Part shown: piece after piece, positions 24,160-32,008 of the stretch
Layout of the letters: every line of letters begins with the position of its first letter
Numbering within the stretch: position 1 is the stretch's first letter
DNA from: Methanothermococcus sp.
Lineage (GTDB): Archaea > AGJL01 > Methanococci > Methanococcales > Methanococcaceae
Direction of reading: 5' to 3'
NCBI RefSeq assembly: GCF_015523155.1
Contig: NZ_WAKW01000068.1
Location: 1-32,653 of the forward strand
Length of the DNA: 32,653 nucleotides
Program-made: the position numbers and the translations under genes
Notes under the pieces: generated by a model
What the model saw: only the letters and a program-made list of their open reading frames with translations
The model's database searches: none
Told to the model about the DNA's origin: nothing

Positions 24160-25839
24160 TTAAAACAGTGGAATACCCACACCCAATATCTTATGTATTA
24201 TAAACTCAGTTATATAAGACACAATAGATACTATCCAAAGTATTATTGTAAAGTGCATAAGTAAAACCTGAGGATGACCACCATCCATCACTTTTATCAT
24301 ATAACCTGAGATTAATGCATATACAACCATACTTGCATACATTAAATAAGATATTATTGACAAATCACCTGGTGCCATGATGTTTATAACACTAATCATG
24401 GCTTCTGGAATATTCAGGGAACCGTATAAATTATTTACCATATTTGCCACACCATAGGAGGTATATAATGCAAGGGCTAGACCTCCTCCCAATCCATATA
24501 TTATAGCTGCAAATTGCTCAACACTTTGATATTTTGATTTTCTTAAATTAATTATTTTACGAAAATTATTTCCTATGATTTCAGAAGCTTTTCCAGGGTC
24601 CCCTCCCAAAAATGTACATCTTTCAAACATTTCGGAAAACAACTGTATCAAATAACTACATGTTTCAAAACCAAAAAGTCTCCATGCTTTATTGTTATCA
24701 ATTTTTATAGATACTCTCTTATAAAGTCGTTCTAAATCCTTTGTCAATGGACCAAAATCGTGTGACGATAAATACTTTAGAGAATCCTCCATACCTCCAC
24801 CTTTTGCACTGACTGAATCACCCAGTGATCTTAAAAAATCTGGAAAGTTATATTCTTTTCTTATAACTAAACTCTCCTCTCTTTTGGCAGCATACCCGCC
24901 GATTAAAAGAGGTGTAAATCCAGCAGCAAATATTATCTGATAGGGAATTGCAGATATTTTAGAAATTCCTGCAAGATATTTTCCCCAAATAAGAACGCCC
25001 AGAGTTATTATGGTTAAAATTACTGAAATTATCAAATATTTCCTAAGTTTTAAATCCACATGAGTAGGTTTCTCCCCTGTATGCCATAATCTATCTGCTG
25101 GCATTTTACTCTTTATAACATATACCAAACACACCTCTGCTATACTAAATCCAATCAGTGCCATTGTAACGGTGGTTACAAAATTATAGGGTGCTATGAA
25201 CGGGGCTATAACTGCAAATGTTACAAAAAATGCAAGAGAGGTAACTGCACTAATATACATTTCTTTAAACATGTCTAATGAATATAACGACCGTTTATAA
25301 AATGCAGCATAATCATTCATAACTATGGGCTGCTCCTTTGCTAAGAAATCTTTGAGCTCTTCACCACTATCTATTGAATATGCCATCCTATCTAAAAAAT
25401 CTGCAAACTCATTACTTGGAGTTCTATGTGCTAAAAATCTACAAGCTTCAGCAAGTGATTGATTCCATCTTTTTATCAATACATATATTTTTTTAGATTC
25501 ATTGGCTAATTGCCCAAGCTCCTCCTTTTCATGTGCAAGAATTTTCATGAGCTCTTTCCTGTCTAAATCAGTTATTGACAGAACACCAAATTTTGTTATA
25601 AATATGTGGAGTTTTTCGTTTATTTGGTTTTTTTGGTTATCTAATTCTATATAAGGATAACCTATGGCACTACCTAAAATTAATACTGGAATAATTAATA
25701 CTAATAATCGTATATATCCTGAAAAATAAGTTATTCCTATGACTACTAAAATAATAGAGAGAATAATTGAAGGTAGTATATATTTTAATAAATAATCTCT
25801 GGGCTTTAATCCCACACGGGATAGAATATTTAGGAACAT
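24160..25839 (-). CDS. flaJ: Archaellum assembly membrane protein FlaJ/ArlJ
   Basis: 559-aa T2SF-like multi-TM protein following flaI. Confidence 0.94.
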   Translation of the reverse strand: MFLNILSRVGLKPRDYLLKYILPSIILSIILVVIGITYFSGYIRLLVLIIPVLILGSAIGYPYIELDNQKNQINEKLHIFITKFGVLSITDLDRKELMKILAHEKEELGQLANESKKIYVLIKRWNQSLAEACRFLAHRTPSNEFADFLDRMAYSIDSGEELKDFLAKEQPIVMNDYAAFYKRSLYSLDMFKEMYISAVTSLAFFVTFAVIAPFIAPYNFVTTVTMALIGFSIAEVCLVYVIKSKMPADRLWHTGEKPTHVDLKLRKYLIISVILTIITLGVLIWGKYLAGISKISAIPYQIIFAAGFTPLLIGGYAAKREESLVIRKEYNFPDFLRSLGDSVSAKGGGMEDSLKYLSSHDFGPLTKDLERLYKRVSIKIDNNKAWRLFGFETCSYLIQLFSEMFERCTFLGGDPGKASEIIGNNFRKIINLRKSKYQSVEQFAAIIYGLGGGLALALYTSYGVANMVNNLYGSLNIPEAMISVINIMAPGDLSIISYLMYASMVVYALISGYMIKVMDGGHPQVLLMHFTIILWIVSIVSYITEFIIHKILGVGIPLF

Positions 25840-25857
25840 AAAATCACCTCAATTACC

Positions 25858-27492
25858 TCAGATAGGGAATGGAAGCCCCTCCAACCCTTTTTCATAGAAA
25901 CTCCATATTACATCTAAAACCTCATAATATCCAAACATGCCTCTTGCTATCATTTCTTCAAGTATTCTAGTTCGTAAATTTAATTCATCATATATCTCCC
26001 TTGGGTCATCGTAGCCAGCTACCTTTGCAATTTTATCTTCAAGAACATAACTGTTGTTAAGTCCTGTAAAATTATGTCTATCTTTTTGAGGGTCCCATTC
26101 AAATACTCCTCTTGTAATTACCCCATCTACTTCTTTATAATAACCTTCAATTTCTTCAATACCCACAACCCTTCTTAAAAACTTACCTCTGCTATATACA
26201 GCAAGTTGAAACACTGCCACATTGAGGTTGTCCATAAATGTTAATGGAATATTGATTGGGTCTCCGTTCAATCTTTGAATCATTTTCTTAACATTTGCAG
26301 CGTGGAATGTAGATAATACCGGGTGTCCTGTCTGCATTGCTTGGAATGCCACCGCACCTTCAACACTCCTTATCTCTCCAACAATAATATAGTTAGGTCT
26401 AGACCTCAGTGCAGCCCTCAATAAATCGAACAGTGTAACTCTACTTTCCTCAGGTCCCCTTTCTCTTGTCAGCAACTGTTGCCATACTGGCTGAGGTGGT
26501 TTAACCTCGGCAGTATCCTCACAAGAAAATACCTTCGATTTTGGTTTAATAAATGGTAATATGGCATTTAATGTTGTGGTCTTACCTGATGCAGTCTCCC
26601 CACAAATAAATATACTCATACCATATTCCAAGCAAAGCCATAAATATGCCGCAGTTTGAGCAGACATTGTCCCCCAGCTGATAAGTTGGGTAATACTTAT
26701 TGGAACGTCTGTAAATTTCCTAATAGTAAATGAAGGACCTTTCAATGAAACGTCGGTTGAATAAATAATATTTATCCTCGAACCATCTGGGAGGGAACCA
26801 TCAACAACAGGGTTTGCATCAGAAACAGGTCTTCCTATCCTTTCACACATGTTTTTTAAATAGTTTGAAAGTTCAATATCATCTTCCCACTTGATATTTG
26901 TAGGAAGCATGTCAAATATCTTATGGACAAGCTGACAGCCATTTGAGCCTATTACGTGTATATCCTCAATATAAGGGTCTCGTTTAATAGGTTCAAGCAC
27001 GCCTAACCCTATTAAATCCCTTTTTAATAAATATAAATATTTATCCCTTTCAGGTTTTGTAATTTCAATTTTTCCAGCATTTAGAAAATTAAAGAATTTT
27101 TTGCCCTTTTTTTTACTATTGACAACCTTGGTTGTTTTGTTAAATAAGTCAGTTAGTATTTTTCCAAATTCATCATCATTTTCAGGAGAATCCGCATAAG
27201 GGGCATATTCTAAAAGTTTATCCATTATCATTTTATAAGTTAATCTTTCATCAGGAGTTTCCAATCTTGGCTCTATGACTATATATTTTGTCTTAACATT
27301 CTGAGTTCCAAATATATGAACGAATAATGGATCACCAATCGGATAAAGAATATTTGGATATTTAAGTTCTTTTAAATCCCTTGATAAGCTCACCATGAAC
27401 TCAGGCATTTTTAAATAGGTTTTTTTGAAGTTATCCACATACTTACGCAAATGAGGATTTCTTTCCATACTGGTTTTAAACTCATCTGCCAT
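25858..27492 (-). CDS. flaI: Archaellum motor ATPase FlaI/ArlI
   Basis: Walker A FICGETASGKTTTLNAI, SCEDTAEVKPPQP, LRSRPNYIIVGEIRSVEGAVAFQAMQTGHPVLSTFHA; GGTGAT supports ATG at 27492. Confidence 0.96.
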   Translation of the reverse strand: MADEFKTSMERNPHLRKYVDNFKKTYLKMPEFMVSLSRDLKELKYPNILYPIGDPLFVHIFGTQNVKTKYIVIEPRLETPDERLTYKMIMDKLLEYAPYADSPENDDEFGKILTDLFNKTTKVVNSKKKGKKFFNFLNAGKIEITKPERDKYLYLLKRDLIGLGVLEPIKRDPYIEDIHVIGSNGCQLVHKIFDMLPTNIKWEDDIELSNYLKNMCERIGRPVSDANPVVDGSLPDGSRINIIYSTDVSLKGPSFTIRKFTDVPISITQLISWGTMSAQTAAYLWLCLEYGMSIFICGETASGKTTTLNAILPFIKPKSKVFSCEDTAEVKPPQPVWQQLLTRERGPEESRVTLFDLLRAALRSRPNYIIVGEIRSVEGAVAFQAMQTGHPVLSTFHAANVKKMIQRLNGDPINIPLTFMDNLNVAVFQLAVYSRGKFLRRVVGIEEIEGYYKEVDGVITRGVFEWDPQKDRHNFTGLNNSYVLEDKIAKVAGYDDPREIYDELNLRTRILEEMIARGMFGYYEVLDVIWSFYEKGLEGLPFPI

Positions 27493-27553
27493 TTCTATCA
27501 CCTTATATTTATAATAAAATTACTGCTGTTATATTATACGCAATTCATACGTT

Positions 27554-28246
27554 TTATGCTACGGACGATATTTCAACTGCAATACCTAAATTAGGTTCTA
27601 CCCTAAATACCATGGTTTTTTGATATGGACCTCTTGCTAAATTGTATTTTTCAATCCTTACGAGGTTCTTAACACTCCCTCCAAATGTGTAAATTTCAGT
27701 TTTTAATACCATTGTAGCAGCTGTTCTAAATAATGTTAAAACAGATTCAGGTAGTTCTTTTGGATTTATGGTGTAAATTACAATCTTATTCATAGCTGCT
27801 ATTCTTTTAAAAAAAGCTATTAAATCATTCACCTTAATGTCGCTTGCATCATTTACTATAAGGGATGATATAGTGTCATATATTACAACGTCTTTTTCAT
27901 AAAATGTCCTTGTTTCCATAAGTTTTTTTATAAAATCTTCCTTTTGGAGATTGTCTGATATTAATGGGTATACCGGAATGTACAGTAGAACTCCGCTCAA
28001 AAGTTTTTTATTTATATTATAATTTAATGACATCATTTGCTTTACAAACTCCAATGTTGTTAATTGTGTTGAAACATATGTAACAGAGTGAGCGTTTTGT
28101 AAAAAACCATAAGCTAATCTTTGAGCAATTATTGATTTTCCAGTAGACTCTTCCCCCTCGATAAGGATTATACTCCCATATGGGATGCCCCCACCCAACC
28201 TTTTATGAACATCATCCCTACTAAGTTCGATTCTTGCAAGCTTCAT
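27554..28246 (-). CDS. flaH: Archaellum ATP-binding protein FlaH/ArlH (KaiC-like)
   Basis: GGIPYGSIILIEGEESTGKSIIAQRLAYGFL; between flaG and flaI. Confidence 0.95.
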   Translation of the reverse strand: MKLARIELSRDDVHKRLGGGIPYGSIILIEGEESTGKSIIAQRLAYGFLQNAHSVTYVSTQLTTLEFVKQMMSLNYNINKKLLSGVLLYIPVYPLISDNLQKEDFIKKLMETRTFYEKDVVIYDTISSLIVNDASDIKVNDLIAFFKRIAAMNKIVIYTINPKELPESVLTLFRTAATMVLKTEIYTFGGSVKNLVRIEKYNLARGPYQKTMVFRVEPNLGIAVEISSVA

Positions 28247-28267
28247 AAAATCACCAGATATATGCCG

Positions 28268-28726
28268 TCATTGAATCTCTACCTTCAATGTCCTAGCCAC
28301 TCCATTTTCAGAAACCACTTTTATTCTATGGTATCCTGTTGTGTTGTAGTTAACATCGATTTTACCAACTTCTGATGGATTTAATACCTCATATGATGAA
28401 GTATCATCTACTACCATCGTGGAATTTATGGATTTAATCTCTCCATCAATTAATACTGTTAAAACTTCTTTATTGAATGTTATTGGTATTTTCCCAGTGT
28501 TTTTTATATATAAAGAAATAATACCTGTTGACTGATTCCTTGGAACATCTCCAGGGTCGTTGATTATTTCAAAATCCTGAGATAGTTTTGATGAAAGTAT
28601 ATCCCCTTTATTGTTAATTCCAATAGATAAATTGTGGGTGGTGGTCGCTAGAATCCCAGAAACAGCAGCAGCAATTATTAAAACGCTGACGAATATAATT
28701 ATTTCTGAGAACACATTGGAAGCCAT
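28268..28726 (-). CDS. flaG: Archaellum stator protein FlaG/ArlG
   Basis: N-terminal TM helix then beta-rich domain; operon position. Confidence 0.88.
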   Translation of the reverse strand: MASNVFSEIIIFVSVLIIAAAVSGILATTTHNLSIGINNKGDILSSKLSQDFEIINDPGDVPRNQSTGIISLYIKNTGKIPITFNKEVLTVLIDGEIKSINSTMVVDDTSSYEVLNPSEVGKIDVNYNTTGYHRIKVVSENGVARTLKVEIQ

Positions 28727-28776
28727 TAAATCACCTAACGATTAAATAAAACATAAAAATTTAAAAATATGTAATG

Positions 28777-29184
28777 CTAATTCAAATTATAATAATACAT
28801 ATTTCCATAATCCGAAACCACACATATTCTTGCTGGAGTAGTGGCATTTATTATAACTGTAATATTATTCAGTGGAGTTAAATACATCACATCTGGATTG
28901 ACTTCAAAACTTTTTGGGTTACCGTTGTACATTATAGTCCATTTATGTGGTTCAAGAGTTAATGAACCATTATTTAAAACTGTAATATATAGAGTGTTGT
29001 TTGAATTCACCACAGATGTTATTACCAATTTTTCATGTGCTTTATTGTTTAAATTATCTATATATTCAGAATATGCGTTATTTAATTTAACGGCATTCAA
29101 ATCAGCTGAACTATAAATATATATGGAACAAACCAATACTGTGGATAATATAATTATCAAACCAGCAGTTGAACTAAACCCCAT
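28777..29184 (-). CDS. flaF: Archaellum stator protein FlaF/ArlF
   Basis: N-terminal TM then beta domain; ATG at 29184 preferred over track TTG at 29196; overlaps flaE end. Confidence 0.85.
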   Translation of the reverse strand: MGFSSTAGLIIILSTVLVCSIYIYSSADLNAVKLNNAYSEYIDNLNNKAHEKLVITSVVNSNNTLYITVLNNGSLTLEPHKWTIMYNGNPKSFEVNPDVMYLTPLNNITVIINATTPARICVVSDYGNMYYYNLN

Positions 29185-29581
29185 AGTATTGTTCAACCCC
29201 CTTTTTTATTCTTCTTATTTCCCATTCTATTCTATCGAGCAATTCACTTGATATTTTTTTACCATTCAATCTTTCTATAAATAATAGTGAAACTAAGTGG
29301 TCAGCAATCGTAAGATTACCAGAAGGTTCGTCTATTTCTTCGTTTCCTGTTTTAATTCCTTTTAAGTATTTTAATAAACCCAATACTGCTTTATCAGACA
29401 GCCAGCCTAAATTATAGTAGAATTCCAATATATCGGCAATATTTGAATAACCTACTCGTTCTGACAAATATTCTAACCATTTGAAAGTAAATATTATTGA
29501 CATAGGGTCCTCTGGAATCTCTTTCAATTTAGCTGGTTTATGTGCCTCAAATAATATTGAAGATAACGACGATGTATCCAT
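29174..29581 (-). CDS. flaE: Archaellum accessory protein FlaE/ArlE
   Basis: FKWLEYLSERVGYSNIADILEFYYNLGWLS domain; AGGAGGG RBS before ATG at 29581. Confidence 0.92.
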   Translation of the reverse strand: MDTSSLSSILFEAHKPAKLKEIPEDPMSIIFTFKWLEYLSERVGYSNIADILEFYYNLGWLSDKAVLGLLKYLKGIKTGNEEIDEPSGNLTIADHLVSLLFIERLNGKKISSELLDRIEWEIRRIKKGVEQYYGV

Positions 29582-29606
29582 AAAAATCCCTCCTAATATT
29601 TTAGAT

Positions 29607-30593
29607 TTATACACTTTGCAATTCTTCTGCCCATTTTCTTATTCTGTTTATTTCCCTATCCATACTTTCTAATTCATCTACGGGTATTGGCCTACCTGCT
29701 AATTTTTCAATATAAAGTAAGGAAACGATATGATCTTCTGATATCATCTTATCCATGGGCTTCCTGAATTCTTCATTGAGGTATTTCATGTTTTTTGATA
29801 TTTTTATCAATCTATTAACCACATTTTCAGATATCCACCCCAAGTTATAATAGTAATCTAAAATATCAATTAAATTACTCAATCCAACTCTACTTATTAA
29901 AAATTCAAGCCATTTAAAGACCAACATAGTAGATAATGTATCCTCAGGTAATTCTTCAAGATTATATTTTTTATCATGCACTCCTGTTAAATCGGTTGGC
30001 ATATCAATGACCTCCTCTCCAATAATCGGAACATTTTTTGAATTTTCAGTTTTTATTTCCTCTACAATATGTTCTTCCTCTTTTTTCTCGATTTCAGGGG
30101 TTTTCAATTCTTCAGGTTTGTATTCTTCCACATCCAACTCTTCTGTAATTATCTTACTTTCTTTCTTTTCTTCCTTCATTACATCTGCTTTTTCATTGAT
30201 TTCTACTACCTCTTCCGATTTCTCCTGCTCCGTCCCTACATTTTCTTCCAAATTAATTAATTCATTTTTAATATTTTCAGATACCTTTGTTGCAGAAGAT
30301 ATTGCCGCGACTTTCATTAATGCATCTAATTTATTACTCAACTCATTTATTTTAGTGGCTAATTCTTCTGCTTTTTTATCCTCTGGTTTTTTACCCAAAT
30401 AAAGATCAGTGACTCTATGCACTATTCTATCTAATTGATTTTTTGTTAATTTTCTATTTTTCAAATTATTTTTTAATAATTCAACAATGAAAGAAGGAAT
30501 TTTGGTTTTTAAATTTTCTAGATATTCCTCCAATTCATCCTCGGTTAAGTAATCTTCCATTGAGGAAGAATAAAGTTCTGTTTCACTAACCAT
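29607..30593 (-). CDS. flaD: Archaellum accessory protein FlaD/ArlD
   Basis: Acidic N-terminal half and C-terminal domain paralogous to FlaE. Confidence 0.92.
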   Translation of the reverse strand: MVSETELYSSSMEDYLTEDELEEYLENLKTKIPSFIVELLKNNLKNRKLTKNQLDRIVHRVTDLYLGKKPEDKKAEELATKINELSNKLDALMKVAAISSATKVSENIKNELINLEENVGTEQEKSEEVVEINEKADVMKEEKKESKIITEELDVEEYKPEELKTPEIEKKEEEHIVEEIKTENSKNVPIIGEEVIDMPTDLTGVHDKKYNLEELPEDTLSTMLVFKWLEFLISRVGLSNLIDILDYYYNLGWISENVVNRLIKISKNMKYLNEEFRKPMDKMISEDHIVSLLYIEKLAGRPIPVDELESMDREINRIRKWAEELQSV

Positions 30594-31041
30594 TTGAACC
30601 CTCTCCTAATATTACTTTGGAGACTTCTTCTTCTGCAAGTATATTATTAATAACATCATCTAAATCGATATCATGCTGTTTTAGATATATATCTGCAAGA
30701 ATTACAACATCTTTTTGCAACTCATCAACTTTTTTTCTAAGGTTGTTTGCTTCATATTCCAATCTCTCCATTTTTTCTATGCTGGTTGCAGTAATCTTTG
30801 AAATACCTATAAATGGATTTACCTGATTTGAGACCACTTCATAAAGTGCCATTATGTCCTGAAAGTTCTCATTTATTTTATTTATATCCTCCCTTAGGGT
30901 TTCATTTTCCTTTCTTAAATTTGTAATCATCATCTCTATTTTTGGAAATCTTGATTCAAGCTCTCCAATTTTAGCAAGAAGCTCCTCATTTGCAGCCACT
31001 AATTCATCTCCCGATTCATACATATCATCTTCATCGAGCAT
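30586..31041 (-). CDS. flaC: Archaellum accessory protein FlaC/ArlC (in-frame portion; apparent start lies upstream in another frame)
   Basis: Coiled-coil ORF between flaB and flaD; open frame continues upstream to the A10 tract without a start codon. Confidence 0.85.
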   Translation of the reverse strand: MLDEDDMYESGDELVAANEELLAKIGELESRFPKIEMMITNLRKENETLREDINKINENFQDIMALYEVVSNQVNPFIGISKITATSIEKMERLEYEANNLRKKVDELQKDVVILADIYLKQHDIDLDDVINNILAEEEVSKVILGEGSNG

Positions 31042-31094
31042 GAATTCATCTTCCAGAGCTTTTTCATTATCCTCTCCTTTCTTTTTACCAAATG

Positions 31095-31139
31095 CTATTT
31101 TTTTTTTATTTCATCAATTATTTCAGATATATTTGGCAT
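31095..31139 (-). other. 5' fragment of flaC: MPNISEIIDEIKKK-stop, out of frame with the remainder
   Basis: GGTGA at 31145-31149 (complement), ATG at 31139, A10 tract (T10 at 31098-31107 on + strand) followed by TAG; difference to 31041 is 98 nt (not divisible by 3). Confidence 0.8.
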
Positions 31140-31150
31140 TTTTTCACCTG

Positions 31151-32008
31151 TTATTGAAGAGCCACTATTTTACTACCAAATACCGATGGTGTTCTAAATT
31201 CAATTATTCCTGATGCTCCATATTCTGGTATTACCTCACCAAATATTTTTTCTCTTGTAGCCACACCTGGCTCAAATATGACTCCTGTATTTACTGTAAG
31301 TATAACTTTATCACCATAGTTAATCGTAGGATGAGCTCCGTATGTGGATTTATCAGCATCCTGTAAAACGATTACTCCAAATTTAGGCACATTGTTTAGT
31401 ACCCATCCATCCTTTCCTACGGTAACTTCATCTGAATTTCTAATTACAACATAACTTCCATTGACATGCTCTCCTTCAGAGGTATTAATCATAGTGGTAT
31501 TAACTGAGTCGTTAGCTCCGTTAAGAACTAGTCCATTAAATATATTCTCTGTACCGTTTGTATCTGCATATTTGATAACACCTGAATACACCAATGATAC
31601 CTTTTTATCTTCATTTGATAGCGTAATTATTGTGGAAGATAAATCTATATCATCACCAATATTGGGTCCTATAAATATAGCTATACCTTTTATACGATTA
31701 TATTGGGGGTATTCCAATATACTTCGATATTTAGAGTTGTTTATTATAGTCTCGTTGGATGTCTTGTTTATAATTATAAAAGAATCCGTAGAATTAACGT
31801 CTGCATATCCTGAAACTTTGAGAACCTGAACACCACTTGCCACCTGTTCTGTGCTTTCCTGACCAACAGTGGATGCTTTGTGTTGTAATTTTCCAGCTGT
31901 GTTTATAATAACCGCCGCTGCAACTGCTGCAACCAATACTAAGGCAATAAATATAATTAAGGTTCCAATACCAATAGCACCCCTTTTGTTTTTAAGGAAT
32001 TTTAGCAT
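31151..32008 (-). CDS. flaB: Archaellin (FlaB), last copy before flaC
   Basis: Prearchaellin signal [34 protein letters not shown]; 9 N-X-S/T sequons. Confidence 0.95.

Follow-up and report, generated by a model that had tools for sequence, protein, structure and literature searches.

An out-of-frame A-run in flaC of Methanococcales as a probable conserved programmed -1 frameshift site

Described slippage genes and the flaC locus

Frameshift recoding in Archaea has so far comprised one well-tested gene, fucA1, together with a number of predictions. In fucA1 of Sulfolobus solfataricus, which encodes an alpha-fucosidase, -1 ribosomal shifting has been demonstrated at the heptamer A_AAA_AAT; the gene is interrupted in S. 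solfataricus strains only, and its site is accompanied by rare codons and a putative stem-loop (PMC8211752). The Mg-chelatase pair ChlI/VWA has been predicted to undergo -1 frameshifting in Methanocaldococcus and Methanococcus (a GeneTack cluster), and this family reached up to 63% in E. coli reporters, with an efficiency that rises with run length (PMC3711429). In dnaX of Thermus thermophilus, an A9 homopolymer in a thermophile supports transcriptional slippage (PMC1088944, PMC5009743), and poly(A) runs are also found in phase-variable surface proteins such as Mycoplasma p78 (cited in PMC3711429). A 2021 review of archaeal recoding mentions no archaellum gene, and no report of flaC frameshifting was found in the literature searched, for which most subscription journals and supplements lay outside reach, leaving an earlier report possible.

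The flaC locus described here resembles each of these systems in part. As in fucA1, the shift would be by -1 at an A-rich heptamer in an archaeon, but the flaC run is longer and is kept across an order. The Mg-chelatase is the one known precedent in that order and has the same design, with the -1 direction, a run of A9–A11 in thermophiles and a stop codon close behind the run, often abutting it. The two genes differ in that both chelatase frames encode large domains (approximately 350 aa each), making the unshifted product a plausible protein, whereas the flaC shift lies 11–20 codons from the start across copies; because the zero-frame product of flaC is only a short peptide, a second functional product from that frame is unlikely. 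The dnaX DNA carries an unbroken frame, and slippage yields the shorter form, whereas flaC would need slippage for its functional protein. Like the phase-variable poly(A) genes, flaC is a surface-structure gene that contains a homopolymer; unlike them, it showed no in-frame allele and holds a single phase.

We analyzed a window of 32,653 nt from Methanothermococcus sp., in which all features of interest are read from the minus strand. The flaC gene is located between two archaellin genes on one side and an intact flaD–flaJ series on the other. The adjacent archaellin gene (31151–32008, PF01917) ends 11 bases 5' of the flaC start codon, the intact flaD (29607–30593, PF04659) overlaps the flaC end, and a further feature of the fla locus, recognized from the gene list and Pfam, spans 24160–29614. 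A ribosome-binding site, GGTGA (31144–31148), precedes an ATG at 31139–31137 that opens the leader ORF (31095–31139), in which 11 codons lead to the A10 run (31107–31098) and a TAG abuts it (31097–31095). Zero-frame translation thus gives MPNISEIIDEIKKK and terminates after 14 codons. The GGTG of the ribosome-binding site is invariant in five aligned relatives, and GGTGA, GGTGG or GGGGA is found in the other genomes.

The frame one base back from the leader reads IAFGKKKGEDNEK... and continues through the FlaC domain. This frame comprises 174 codons plus a stop (30586–31110, stop to stop), would be entered by a -1 shift at 31098, and encodes a product matching FlaC_arch (PF05377) with an E-value of 4.5e-24 and 85 bits against a cut-off of 27.8; the match and the place in the fla operon identify it as FlaC (ArlC). 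The FlaC frame opens after TGATGA (31116–31111), and its first ATG, GTG or TTG is the ATG at 31039–31041. Run lengths of 8 or 11 would bring leader and FlaC into frame, and the actual length of 10 does not. A preliminary description of this DNA had already reported the out-of-frame ATG 31139 with its GGTGA and early TAG, the joining of the frames by a -1 shift, the lack of a FlaC-frame start between TGATGA and ATG 31041, the two in-frame lengths and a slippery A_AAA_AAA heptamer within the run; each of these readings was recovered when we reread the sequence, with the heptamer in phase in the zero frame.

The run and its frame relation across Methanococcales

We searched 61 genomes for FlaC homologues and read the loci in all frames. 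In 18 flaC copies, belonging to two families, an A-run occupies the same place and follows an ATG leader that bears a ribosome-binding site and lies in another frame. Within Methanococcaceae, seven copies carry A10 (G000, G001a, G002, G003, G004, G011 and G012) and G001b alone carries A9; within Methanocaldococcaceae, nine genomes carry A9 and G034 carries A11. Plasmids allowed us to recognize G028 as Methanocaldococcus jannaschii DSM 2661, G024 as M. fervens AG86, G029 as M. sp. FS406-22, G027 as M. vulcanius M7 and G011 as Methanothermococcus okinawensis IH1. The run is uninterrupted and at least 9 A long in all 18 copies. Leader and FlaC stand in an exact -1 relation in 17 of them and in frame in none, and the heptamer A_AAA_AAA/C/G is in the right phase in all 17 copies with the -1 relation. 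The TAG abuts the run in 8/8 Methanococcaceae copies, although in G001b it is not in the leader frame. Since leader length and sequence differ between the families (MPNISEIIDEIKKK versus MGVKDIIESIKNKLSNLK...), indels have happened here, and the -1 relation has nonetheless been kept. Both the shift site and the frame relation are therefore conserved in two families, and as the copies share descent they do not amount to 18 independent trials.

The G001 MAG is mixed and holds two flaC types, the A9 type being located on a 3.2-kb contig (G001:C219, DQVU01000213.1). This copy has the other wrong phase and breaks the -1 rule, reflecting either real variation in run length or an assembly slip.

In the genus designated g3, which is taken as the mesophilic Methanococcus from its sequence and kinship, seven genomes lack the run and encode the same N-terminus within a single frame, for example MPNISEIIEEIKQKIKLGKK. 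Because the fusion is in frame in g3, the leader and the FlaC frame belong to one protein; judged by homology to this unsplit relative, the two split frames encode a single polypeptide. The 11 leader codons up to the run gave a pooled pN/pS of 0.13 in the run-bearing Methanococcaceae, compared with 0.12 in g3, 0.08 between these two sets and 0.43 within Methanocaldococcaceae, and on this codon evidence the leader is under purifying, protein-level selection. An amphipathic N-terminal helix is suggested, and only suggested, by hydrophobic moments of 0.30–0.52 with shuffle fractions of 0.03–0.25.

On a tree of FlaC, which is midpoint-rooted and has several weak deep forks, the distribution of the run is compatible with its having been gained once and lost twice, in g3 and in the divergent G009. 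These are the two lineages that live without the flaC run. The FlaC of G009 is 54% identical to the window protein despite belonging to the same genus, and is encoded in frame, without the run, on a long branch. Outside Methanococcales, no such run was present in the few outgroups seen, the phylum search having returned the same order only. Within Methanococcaceae, no FlaC match passed the cut-off in G005, G006, G007, G008, G010, G014 and G016; since G014 and G016 are nearly complete and belong to one genus, archaella may have been lost there.

Long A-runs are scarce in these genomes. Genome pattern searches found a single A10 in 1.7 Mb in both M. okinawensis and G012, which belongs to another genus, and in each case it is the one at flaC. 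A dinucleotide shuffle of the window predicts 3.4 A10 matches per 32.7 kb, and it is because A10 is near absent against this expectation that the flaC run is not explained as a by-product of A-richness. The window has 36 runs of seven A, but just 5 of eight and 1 of nine. Exact A9 runs number 5–19 per Methanocaldococcus genome and 46 in the draft G034, with one at flaC in each finished genome, and the sole run of at least 11 A in G034 is the flaC run. When some 60 other runs of A9 or longer were placed in frame, the ChlI/VWA Mg-chelatase pair was the sole conserved out-of-frame case.

Competing explanations for the split gene

We interpret the flaC A-run as a conserved programmed -1 frameshift site, with a probability of roughly 0.86. 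Because the split is kept across the order, the cell very probably must slip on purpose for FlaC to be made; that slippage occurs, at what level and how often are matters of inference. Programmed -1 slippage was one of four alternatives raised in the preliminary description, and conservation (17/18 copies at -1, 0/18 in frame) supports it well. The same counts tell against another of the four, reversible phase variation of motility, in which the run length would vary in the DNA and FlaC would come only from A8 or A11 cells. Runs of A9–A11 are expected to be mutable, G001b carries A9 where its nearest relatives carry A10, and an off-switch at flaC would work, given that a flaC deletion in Methanococcus maripaludis results in non-archaellated cells (PMC4187195). 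Such a switch should nevertheless show on-states among the species-level copies, yet one phase is held across two families despite unlike lengths and flanks, and cultured isolates such as M. jannaschii hold the off-looking sequence. With in-frame alleles absent from the 18 copies, phase variation is very improbable and does not serve as the main explanation.

Tolerated A-run indels have been proposed for A-rich endosymbiont genomes, and flaC could likewise carry a chance indel, unselected and rescued by general slippage. Long A-runs slip anyway, which would limit the damage, and the two lineages without the site show no evident harm. Random phases would, however, put about one third of the copies in frame, other A10 runs are near absent from these genomes, and a single added A would restore the frame in Methanococcaceae, where A10 is nevertheless kept in 7/8 copies. 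Since the -1 phase persists though an in-frame length is one slip away, we consider a tolerated indel improbable. The remaining two alternatives of the preliminary description fared poorly. If FlaC started downstream, at ATG 31041 or at a non-standard codon, the leader would be an unrelated short ORF, and this genome does offer an in-frame ATG at 31041; a comparison of FlaC N-termini among relatives, as the preliminary description had called for, places the first FlaC-frame starts at unrelated positions, with no start codon conserved among the copies read. M. okinawensis has Ile in place of the Met encoded at 31041, the first start lies inside PF05377 there and in G012, and the leader is homologous to the selected N-terminus of in-frame FlaC, so that a downstream start is scarcely credible. 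Termination-reinitiation was rejected, since G024 alone has the leader stop overlapping a FlaC-frame start as ATGA. Initiation at the ATA after the run was rejected too, since Methanocaldococcus lacks this codon at the site. Finally, finished genomes of cultured isolates contain the same site, and a sequencing or assembly indel in this MAG is therefore excluded.

The slipping agent and the supply of FlaC

Under programmed frameshifting, initiation would occur at ATG 31139 from its own ribosome-binding site, and after the 14 codons the reading would either stop at the TAG or, through a -1 slip on the A-run, pass into FlaC to give MPNISEIIDEIKKK-IAFGKKK.... We favour ribosomal slippage on A_AAA_AAN beside a stop codon, at even odds. 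Slippage by RNA polymerase on A9–A11, as in Thermus dnaX, would instead produce a mixed mRNA pool in which FlaC is encoded by the transcripts that have gained one A or lost two; the site would still be programmed, and we hold this as a genuine possibility that falls short of even odds. Both may be active. The polymerase is favoured by the length of the runs, since a homopolymer of about nine or more is the threshold for transcriptional slippage (PMC1088944) and all 18 flaC runs, at A9–A11 and unbroken, reach it, whereas a ribosomal heptamer needs 7. The chelatase runs of thermophiles are likewise 9–11 long, runs of at least 8 are sharply depleted in the window, and selection against slippage is visible from length nine in many bacteria (PMC1088944).

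No conserved structure was detected in the 75 nt 3' of the run, where z is near zero in most copies, and a downstream stem-loop was rejected because the low z-scores are scattered (G028, G029, G025 and G002) with no shared element. As no internal Shine-Dalgarno was obvious near the site either, the classical stimulators of ribosomal frameshifting are absent, and the lack of a stimulatory structure also speaks for the polymerase, although in Methanococcaceae, where every flaC copy has the abutting stop codon, that codon may substitute for a stimulator. Against the polymerase stand the in-phase heptamers and this abutting stop codon, and also the chelatase shift site of three g3 genomes, which is A6 only (TCA AAA AAY TAG), a heptamer of ribosomal type too short for polymerase slippage, together with the demonstrated ribosomal shift of fucA1. 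The ribosome is further favoured by the tRNAs of M. jannaschii, in which tRNA-Lys(UUU) was the only one seen for Lys (36 tRNA hits, one untyped); in E. coli, having this tRNA alone has been described as prone to shifting (PMC5009743).

ArlCDE are thought to form the cytosolic ring and switch of the archaellum motor (PMC8978795), and full-length FlaC would be available by no route other than the shift. Frameshifting would then be obligatory for motility, provided that thermophiles need FlaC as M. maripaludis does. Its likely role would be to adjust the amount of FlaC to that of FlaD/E, or to link motor assembly with translation conditions or growth state. A bolder reading, which we regard as unlikely, is that an order-wide obligatory frameshift gates this motor ring protein and regulates archaellum number or switching, possibly via temperature or Lys-tRNA supply. 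The site belongs to a well-studied machine and is present in M. jannaschii, a model archaeon. In-frame relatives can serve as natural controls, and M. maripaludis offers a genetically tractable host for testing it. Standard gene callers cannot place flaC starts correctly in thermophilic Methanococcales, and truncated FlaC sequences may consequently be in use.

Two observations concern the Mg-chelatase alone. Its -1 break is kept in the Methanococcus-type loci L206, L207 and L208 (G021, G017 and G020, respectively) with A6, versus A9–A11 in thermophiles. In L203 and L204 (G003 and G008, respectively) the two domains form a one-frame fusion despite a retained A9 run, representing either a natural reversion to one frame or a different state of the site.
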